Below, in pieces: positions 33,789 to 60,955 of a stretch of 64,000 bases of DNA (within the stretch, counting starts at the first letter, position 1; every line of letters begins with the position of its first letter). The notes beneath the pieces are model-generated. The model was not told the origin of the DNA. It searched no databases and was given only the letters and a program-made list of their open reading frames with translations. This DNA comes from Methanoculleus chikugoensis (GTDB lineage: Archaea; Halobacteriota; Methanomicrobia; Methanomicrobiales; Methanoculleaceae), in assembly GCF_900095385.1 (NCBI RefSeq), contig NZ_FMID01000024.1, positions 1 to 64,000 on the forward strand. The letters are read 5' to 3'. The position numbers were made by a program, and so were the translations under genes.

Positions 33789-33954
33789 TCTCTTTTTCGG
33801 CGGGGTTGCGGGGGCGCTCCCTTGCGCCCCGGCAGGGGATGTGTGGCCGTTAGCGACAAAGTTCTTGGTCTGTGGAAAGAACACGCATTCTCCTTCTCTA
33901 GGTTAGGAGCATCTCAATTGTGTGAATAACTAGAACAGTGAAAAGACGAGAGCA

Positions 33955-34216
33955 AAGCCCCATGCAGTGGACCGTGGGAATATCGCCATGGGGGAGGGGC
34001 TGACGGGGAGGGGGCGTGCCCCCTCCCCCGTCTCTACCTTGTACACGGACACCTGTGACTCCACCTCGCCCGGCCTCCGGCCTCCCCCCGCCGCCCCTCA
34101 GGGGCGGGGCAGTGCGTGGCGATAAGCGATGTTCCGATAGGAATGGAGTTCGAGCACCGCTGGGTGCGCAGTCCCTCGAAACCCGTACATGGGAGTTGTA
34201 ACTGACCATGCGGCTC
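33955..34216 (+). repeat. Dispersed GC-rich repeat, copy B (gap 33789-34280)
   Basis: Contains the CATGCAGTGGACCGTGGG start, TATCGCCA (33981), a GGGGAGGGGGC/GCCCCCTCCCCC hairpin, the CGGCCTCCGGCC hairpin (34071-34082), a CCGCCCC/GGGGCGG stem and TGGCGATA (34117). The mini-hairpin GCACC-gct-GGGTGC is at 34154-34167 in inverted direction. No gene is seen in this gap. Confidence 0.8.
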
Positions 34217-38619: not shown

Positions 38620-38692
38620 GGGCCCGTAGCATAGCCGGTGGTGCACCCGGCTGATAACCGGGAGGTCGTGCGTTCGAATCGCACCGGGCCCA
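38620..38692 (+). tRNA. tRNA-Ile (anticodon GAT)
   Basis: The 73-base cloverleaf can be folded by hand. The acceptor stem is GGGCCCG/CGGGCCC with discriminator A. The D arm is GCAT/GTGC, and the anticodon stem CCCGG/CCGGG holds loop CTGATAA, so the anticodon is GAT. The T arm is GTGCG-TTCGAAT-CGCAC. CCA is not encoded. No intron is present. A broken second copy of its 3' half lies 42 bases downstream. Confidence 0.96.
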
Positions 38693-38733
38693 TCGTTTCT
38701 CATTCTAGCTTGTTTTCAGGAGTTGTTCGAACA

Positions 38734-38786
38734 GGTGGTGCACCCGGCTGATAACCGGGTGGTCGTGCGCTCAAATCTCACGGCCT
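38734..38786 (+). pseudogene. Partial tRNA-Ile copy (3' portion)
   Basis: GGTGGTGCACCCGGCTGATA and the following bases repeat the tRNA from within its D loop through the anticodon arm, with few changes, and decay through the T arm. The 5' acceptor strand and a matching 3' strand are absent, so it cannot form a working tRNA. Such partial tRNA copies often mark the far end of an integrated element. No integrase was seen in this window. Confidence 0.75.
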
Positions 38787-38913
38787 CGCTGTCCTCTGTA
38801 CTGTATATCTACTTGGTCTCCTATTCAAAATTCATGCTGTATCCGAGGTTCTCCGGCAATATTCTCTCGTTTAAAATCGCGGGAAACGGGAGGCGATGCA
38901 CGAGCGCACCCGT

Positions 38914-40369: not shown

Positions 40370-40735
40370 TGCAGCCCTTGCCCCTGCTTCTACCCTGTAA
40401 AACTCTCCCGTAGTCACCACCAATTCAGTATATCTGTTGTAACCCCACCCCACCCGGCCTTCGGCCTCCTCACTCACACCTGCGGTGCTTTAACTCCTGC
40501 CGTTCCGGCAGTCGTTCCCCGCCCACGAGGGGCGGGGGCAGTCATGGCGATACCCCCATGAAAGCCGTACCAGGGGAGGTGAGTCATACATTCCCCCTCT
40601 CCGGAGCATATCCCCGGGCAGTGGACCGTGAGGGCATCGCACTTGGGGGGGCCGACGGGGAGGGGGAGCATCCCCCCCTCCCCTGTCTCTGTCGCGTAAG
40701 AGGGATGCCTGTCACTCTCCCTCCTACCCTACAGG
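40370..40735 (+). repeat. Dispersed GC-rich repeat, copy C, split by a mini-hairpin module
   Basis: The gap 40240-40878 carries this copy. The ACCCGGCCTTCGGCCTCCT hairpin is at 40453-40470. The GAGGGGCGGGGGCAGT half with TGGCGATA at 40545 is separated from it by about 43 bases (40471-40513). That insert includes CACC-TGC-GGTG (40477-40487) and TTAACTCC, the mini-hairpin module seen elsewhere. The GTGGACCGTG block and a G-run/C-run hairpin follow (40621-40690). Confidence 0.78.
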
Positions 40736-46152: not shown

Positions 46153-46189
46153 AAGGGTCAGGTGGTGCATAATAGAACGAGCAGGACTC

Positions 46190-46560
46190 GATCAAAAGCC
46201 CAGTGCAGCGAATCGTGGGGCTGCGCACCTCGAAGCCTCACGGCTTCTCGTGCTCCGCTCCTCCGGAGCATCGCATTTTGCACCTCCTGTGCTCAAACTC
46301 CATTCCCGAAACCCTTCTGGTTTCTCCAGCTCCGATTTTGACGAACCGTCGCATCCTGAAGGAACGTCGTTCTTCTGTGCTCGATCTCCTGCCCCCGCAC
46401 CTTGGGGCGGAGGAGGAGCGCGAAGCGCGGGTGGGGTGGGGGTTACACGAACTCATTAATAAGCGGAGACAGGGGAGGGGGGCAAGCCCCCCGCCCCGTC
46501 AGCCCCTCCCCCTGGGGGCGATATTCAGTGGAAATCCGTGCATGGTGAGTCCCACCCATT
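46190..46560 (-). repeat. Dispersed GC-rich repeat, copy D (inverted), with mini-hairpin module
   Basis: The gap 46153-46695 holds an inverted copy. Read on the minus strand it gives CCCCACCCGCGCTTCGCGCT, the CGCC/GGTG stem and GGGGGCAGG. On the plus strand the G-run/C-run hairpin is at 46470-46512 (GGGGAGGGGGGCAAG... CCCCTCCCCC). The mini-hairpin GCAC-CTCCT-GTGC is at 46280-46292, with TCAAACTCCATTCC next to it. No gene is seen. Confidence 0.75.
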
Positions 46561-56774: not shown

Positions 56775-57225
56775 GCGGGGCCCGCCTGAGGTATCCCGGC
56801 GGGAGCAGGACACCCCTTCTCCTACCTCTCCGGGGTATCTGGAACCCCCACCCCGCCCGGCCTTCGGCCTCCTCCCCCGCCCGCGAGGGGCGGGGGCAGT
56901 GCGTGGCGATAGCCGGTGGGAAGCCGTGTATGGTTCTTCTCCCGGCTCTCCCCATGTAGTGGACCGTGGGGGTATCGCCATTGGGGGAGGGGCTGACGGG
57001 GAGGGGGGCAGGGCCCCCCTCTCCTGTCTCTACCCATCCTGGATATCTGTAGCCCCCACCCCGCCCGGCCTTCGGCCTCCTCCCCCGCCCACGAGGGGCG
57101 GGGGCAGTGCGTGGCGATACCTGGTTGAAAGCCGTGCACGGTTCTTCTCCGGCATCTCCCCATGCAGTGGACCGTGGGAGTATCGCCATTGGGGGAGGCG
57201 GCCCGCGGGGAGGGGGGCCCTCACG
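56775..57225 (+). repeat. Dispersed GC-rich repeat, copies E1 and E2 in tandem
   Basis: The gap 56705-57296 contains two direct units offset by 208 bases. The CCTTCGGCCT hairpin is at 56861 and 57069. Each unit has the CCCCGCCC/GGGCGGGG stem, TGGCGATA (56904 and 57112) and TATCGCCA (56973 and 57181) separated by exactly 61 bases. The second unit has the perfect palindrome CCGTGCACGG at 57132-57141. A G-run/C-run hairpin separates them (56998-57024). These are the best-preserved copies in the window. Confidence 0.9.
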
Positions 57226-60744: not shown

Positions 60745-60955
60745 AGTTCTCCCCTCGGAGCCCCATCTCTCTACCCTGTAAGGCTCTTCCGATAGCCCCC
60801 ACCCCGCCCGCGCTTCGCGCTCCTCCCCCGCCCCTCCGGGGGGGCAGTGCGTGGCGATAGCCACGGGAAATCCGTACACGGGCCTTTTCCAGGGTCACCC
60901 CATGCAGTGGACCGTGGGGATATCGCCATTTGGGATGGGGGCCGCCCCCTCTACC
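60745..60955 (+). repeat. Dispersed GC-rich repeat, copy F (gap 60709-61054)
   Basis: Contains CCCCACCCCGCCCGCGCTTC with the GCGC-TTC-GCGC hairpin, GGGGCAGTGCGTGGCGATAG (TGGCGATA at 60852), CCGTACACGG (60872-60881) and CATGCAGTGGACCGTGGGGA followed by TATCGCCA at 60921. The spacing between the two 8-mers is 61 bases, as in copies E1 and E2. No gene is seen in this gap. Confidence 0.85.

Follow-up and report, generated by a model that had tools for sequence, protein, structure and literature searches.

Intergenic palindromic repeats of Methanoculleus as the probable body of an IS5-derived MITE

The palindromic repeats found between the genes of the window, the 64,000-nucleotide stretch of the Methanoculleus chikugoensis genome that was analysed, belong to a multi-copy family, which probably goes back to an IS5-derived MITE of this archaeal genus and comprises the palindromic body of the MITE and numerous copies of this body in solo, tandem or decayed form. 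The complete form is assigned to the IS5-derived MITEs because its terminal inverted repeats (TIRs) and the length of its target duplication are common to an IS5-family transposon of a relative. The units present in the window are, judged from their sequence, probably decayed or tandem derivatives of this complete MITE, and they are filed as such and not as MITEs.

In some relatives, the repeat unit sits inside longer shared flanks, and with one such flank as the query, an element dispersed over the genome was detected in 26 of 35 genomes. This complete element is roughly 200-800 bp long, some copies being lengthened by nested repeats, and is framed by 16-bp TIRs (GGCTCTGTTGAAACCC) and 8-bp target duplications. 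It contains no transposase gene and occurs in dispersed copies in most genomes of the genus. Its layout is GGCTCTGTTGAAACCC, ~80-90 nt, the unit from its left end X through the core to its right end Y, ~50 nt and GGGTTTCAACAAAGCC. The 16-bp TIR, formulated as GGCT(C/T)TGTTGAAACCC, was present in 22 of the 35 genomes of the genus, and the reversed control pattern gave 0 matches. At the predicted offset, the 8-bp duplications agree at 7-8 of 8 positions in 61 of 88 rows, as opposed to no more than 9 of 88 when the offset is shifted. Each element enters this count on both strands, some sites recur in more than one species and some matches fall within A/T runs. For the elements holding the X/Y body, a match at 7 or 8 of the 8 positions was observed in 15 of 24 cases. 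A complete copy of 341 bp is present in the genome of the window itself (G000, contig C50, 42519-42859), and its duplication CGAGGTCC matches at 8/8 positions. When the joined flanks of this copy were searched in the genus, an exact empty site was found in G032 (C3, ~776.7-777.2 kb), which is contiguous and contains a single CGAGGTCC. The same site is occupied in G028.

The autonomous partner was identified in G029 as a 1,010-bp IS5-family transposon flanked by the 8-bp duplication CAAGCATC. Its ends match the MITE TIR, one of them being exactly GGCTCTGTTGAAACCC and the opposite one reading GGCTCTGTTGAATTCC. The transposase of 288 amino acids was recognized by Pfam PF01609 (E 9e-22) as well as by the NCBIfam IS5 model NF033579 (231 bits, cut-off 140). 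IS6, suggested as the source of the ends by the 8-bp duplication, was rejected since this transposase belongs to the IS5 family. In the genome of the window, no close homologue of the G029 transposase was detected at E 1e-10, which speaks against the IS5-derived reading. Mechanistically, the IS5 transposase would recognize the inverted repeats and move the MITE in trans.

Short elements of ~97-285 bp carrying the same TIR, perfect 8-bp duplications and different interiors were observed at L229, L251, L258-L260 (G013), L236 (G004), L240 (G010), L245 and L261-L262. Several MITE families thus appear to share one IS5-type end. In G021 and G031 (L248, L249), many contigs start ~83-127 bases into an element carrying this TIR, which would be expected of an assembly broken by a multi-copy IS, and the copy counts in these genomes are therefore lower bounds.

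The unit itself spans ~200 bp and consists of the conserved left end X (GTGCAGTGGACCGTGG..TATCGCCA), G/C-rich hairpins and the conserved right end Y (TGGCGATA..GAAAGCCGTGCA), the latter reading TGGCGATA...GAAA(G/T)CCGTGCA. An alignment of full copies revealed the order X, hp1, a variable segment, a C-rich strand, hp2, hp3 and Y. Short variants comprising X, a single hairpin and Y exist as well. All the tracts which the original prediction had described along the window are present at approximately the same positions, as seen in both the sequence and the profile matches. The 208-bp tandem consists of three units. E1 (56810-56932, forward strand; profile model positions 70-200) has lost X, and its degenerate hp1 is followed by hp2, hp3 and Y. 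E2 (56947-57140, forward strand; model positions 8-200, E 5e-53) is a complete X-core-Y unit, and the third unit (57152-57219, forward strand; model positions 5-76) is truncated to X and the start of hp1. Since E1 lacks its left end, the most complete unit of the window is E2.

The remaining units were recovered by profile matches. On the forward strand, the unit at the left edge (45-187) lacks its left end and carries an hp2 of the GCGC type, and the unit at 34 kb (33951-34130) lies between convergent genes and is interrupted within Y by a repeat of a second family. This 34-kb site is also occupied in G003, where a 38-nt second-family insert absent from the window copy sits inside hp1 (L194). 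The tract at 40 kb (40383-40727, forward strand) comprises one and a half units at a divergent gene pair, and a split match as well as the sequence show that a second-family repeat of 45-46 nt (~40472-40516) separates hp2 from hp3. In the unit at 46 kb (46389-46526, reverse strand; profile match and sequence), a Y-type end replaces X, followed by a second-family array. The partial unit at 60.8 kb (60763-60940, forward strand), with hp2 of the GCGC type and the X end of a next unit, is located 3' of a replication factor C large-subunit-like gene at a site that is polymorphic in the genus.

This second short repeat family has small hairpins (GCACCT..AGGTGC, CTCC..GGAACG, GTCGC) and inserts into the hairpin stems of the first family; in the window, it occupies 40472-40516 and 46165-46390. 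Furthermore, at ~250-355 of the window as well as at L057 and L210, a Y-type end is combined with another hairpin and an end that reads GTTGTTCCAAAACCCC into a related composite, which is possibly a further MITE type. Another feature of the window is a tRNA gene at 38620-38692, followed 97 bp on by a stretch of 92% similarity over 48 bases (~38717-38789) below the Rfam tRNA threshold, possibly a decayed tRNA duplicate.

The link between the window units and the complete MITE is drawn from shared sequence. E2 shares 144 of 185 aligned bases with the C50 MITE body, and the linker between E1 and E2 (56933-56946, forward strand), when taken jointly with the X end, is similar to the right-hand portion of the left arm of the MITE. 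The equivalent linker and X end at 57142-57177 match the left-arm query with 86% over 36 bases (E 2e-5). It had been proposed that the repeats may be a non-autonomous mobile element with no transposase nearby. None was indeed found among the ten neighbouring proteins scanned, and for the family the proposal is supported by the IS5-type TIRs, 8-bp duplications, empty site and autonomous partner of the complete copies. It does not extend to the window units as such, which display neither an IS5-type TIR nor a detectable target duplication. These units without TIRs would have come from complete copies by loss of the ends, and the tandem units may have arisen by unequal exchange. An inversion between the short TATCGCCA/TGGCGATA repeats would be a further route. 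Several copies of the genome have a core whose orientation is reversed with respect to the ends, as would result from a flip at TATCGCCA/TGGCGATA, and an inverted core or an exchanged end type was observed at L024, L025, L051-L053, L055, L057 and L060 as well as at 46389-46526 of the window, which suggests flips at 8-bp inverted repeats.

A doubtful but possible alternative is that X-Y forms a palindromic cassette of its own, mobile or convertible and similar to REP/BIME or BOX sequences, which would spread independently of the IS5 machinery and was merely captured by an IS5-type MITE. Solo units are far more numerous than complete MITEs in the genome of the window, where eight matches to the left arm, some of them just the linker, stand against ~53 distinct unit sites, as counted in the retrieved stretches. 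Within the unit, conservation is highest at X and Y, which stay constant while the length of the core varies, and other MITEs with the same TIR are without an X-Y unit. In addition, G036, which belongs to another genus of the same family, displays 26 matches (L276-L295) in which the X/Y ends are conserved, the core is shorter and the outer arms are different. Since the ends are retained there with different outer arms, the unit may predate this MITE. Against such an independent cassette, 37 isolated copies revealed neither a target duplication nor an outer boundary held constant. The sequence from X to Y was found to contain no gene, and the RAYT/Y1 transposase (PF01797) has 0 matches in the genome of the window, while 5 of 14 control genomes were positive. 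The extended version, in which X-Y is a self-standing cassette that would spread without TIR or duplication, flip its core, ride in MITEs and settle between convergent genes as a possible boundary at DNA or RNA level, is considered unlikely.

The origin as MITE body also bears on the hairpins, whose paired changes had originally been taken to suggest selection on a folded RNA or cruciform. The paired changes reported there are real. The sequence of the small hairpin is GGCC-TTC-GGCC in the 40-kb tract as well as in E1 and E2, and GCGC-TTC-GCGC in the units at 0.1, 46 and 60.8 kb. The 34-kb unit has GGCC-TCC-GGCC, and the second stem keeps pairing at 0.1 kb with one T.G pair (CCCGTCCCC/GGGGGCGGG). 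Furthermore, the fold of E2 beats 200 of 200 shuffles (z = -4.1), stems are paired in 96.7% of cells compared to 94.4% with arms shuffled between copies, and the arms of hp2 change together in 13 of 42 copies, all of which would fit a structured non-coding or cis-acting RNA under selection for pairing. Nevertheless, the covariation is weak. Among the 42 copies, both-sided changes are confined, bar a single sequence, to two adjacent inner pairs of hp2 (29 GC/CG vs 13 CG/GC). These pairs rank top in a G-statistic with a tree-based null, although at E = 0.1 and 0.23. In the named structure of 42 pairs across the 42 copies, 26 of the 27 double-change cells derive from this essentially two-state hp2 swap. 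The cell count and the score are above those of shuffles, whereas the number of pairs with both-sided changes (3) is not. When the copies were placed on a tree from which hp2 had been left out, the swap required 11 changes, the same as random labels, and exchange between copies or copying from arm to arm would explain this scatter more simply than repeated compensatory mutation. For the X and Y arms, a permutation approach revealed no significant co-adaptation (24 of 300 shuffles were equally good), and pairing within copies was not clearly above that between copies.

Also the mismatches give no uniform picture. The ratios of G.U to A.C are 1:7 for hp2, 4:14 for hp3 and 24:11 for hp1, of which the main classes alone count since the parser discarded many misreads. 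As the sign differs between the hairpins, neither strand is consistently protected. With curated thresholds, Rfam identified a tRNA alone in the window, and a permissive search yielded matches at chance level. Together with the random orientation toward genes described below, these results make a selected RNA very improbable. Since the body would have been moved by the enzyme of an ordinary IS5-type transposon, the hairpins are real yet poor evidence for a new functional RNA. With an origin as MITE body, they would be mobile-DNA anatomy rather than selected RNA.

The genomic placement of the family is clearly biased. Genes were placed by a simple codon-usage caller trained on the window, and no unit lies inside a gene according to these calls. 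From 87 classifiable sites, 54 are convergent, 26 co-directional and 7 divergent gene gaps, whereas convergent gaps account for 17% of gene pairs and 30% of intergenic bases (binomial P ~2e-20 and ~9e-10, respectively). Beside co-directional genes, the orientation of the units is random (15 same vs 11 opposite). At three convergent gaps followed across the genus, the unit is, depending on the species, present, absent, replaced by another repeat or reversed. G003, which is ~95% identical over most of the window, is devoid of the 57-kb and 60.8-kb copies and contains a unit pair ~1.1 kb beyond the equivalent of the right edge of the window, where G000 has a short remnant-like stretch. The gathering between convergent genes would result from selection purging insertions in genes and promoters. 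Comparable to the enterobacterial BIME-2, the units between convergent genes could serve the ends of these genes, for instance by bounding transcription in both directions or as gyrase sites. Such a useful role would fit the convergent bias and the occupation of several sites in more than one species, but deserves very little credence since many species hold just a few bases or an unrelated repeat at the three gaps and avoidance of promoters and genes accounts equally for the bias.

Copies were gathered by BLAST and a nucleotide profile. In the genome of the window, a 211-base query yielded 82 BLAST pieces (best E 1e-106, many below 1e-20), which is far above chance. The family is present in 33 of 34 other genomes of the genus. 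In other genera of the same family, two genomes were positive, one of them merely at E 7e-5 and not recovered in the repeat search, and the repeats are absent from 24 of 24 genomes of other families of the order.

In comparison to known systems, a TIR common with an autonomous IS5 element, 8-bp duplications and non-coding, multi-copy, intergenic sequences are likewise found in the MITEs of the IS5 family. In contrast to these, the family described here has a large G/C-rich palindromic body and also many TIR-less and tandem copies. The REP/BIME sequences of bacteria occur as many short palindromic intergenic copies, in arrays of tandem or mixed orientation and with a bias toward the 3' ends of genes, and they resemble our family in all of these points. 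Unlike REP/BIME with their RAYTs, however, the genome here is without a Y1 (RAYT) transposase and the complete copies have IS5-type ends. Repeats of the BOX, ERIC and NEMIS type are modular, foldable and intergenic with ~100-200 bp, as are the units here, a likeness in general features. The present family differs from them in being archaeal and in having an identified IS5-type partner for its complete copies. An integron attC site was set aside, as the known core-site motifs are absent on inspection. Our literature search returned no description of this repeat family. The satellite families of Methanoculleus marisnigri have unit lengths of 45 and 51 bp ("Satellites in the prokaryote world"; PMC6749651), which do not match the 208-bp tandem.

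With the family probably being the body of an IS5-derived MITE, a candidate functional RNA is replaced by an explained origin, and the genus gains a defined mobile element whose copies can be counted, for which an autonomous partner and an empty site have been identified and which is clearly biased in its placement. Furthermore, concerted changes of both arms in a repeated palindrome can mimic RNA covariation.
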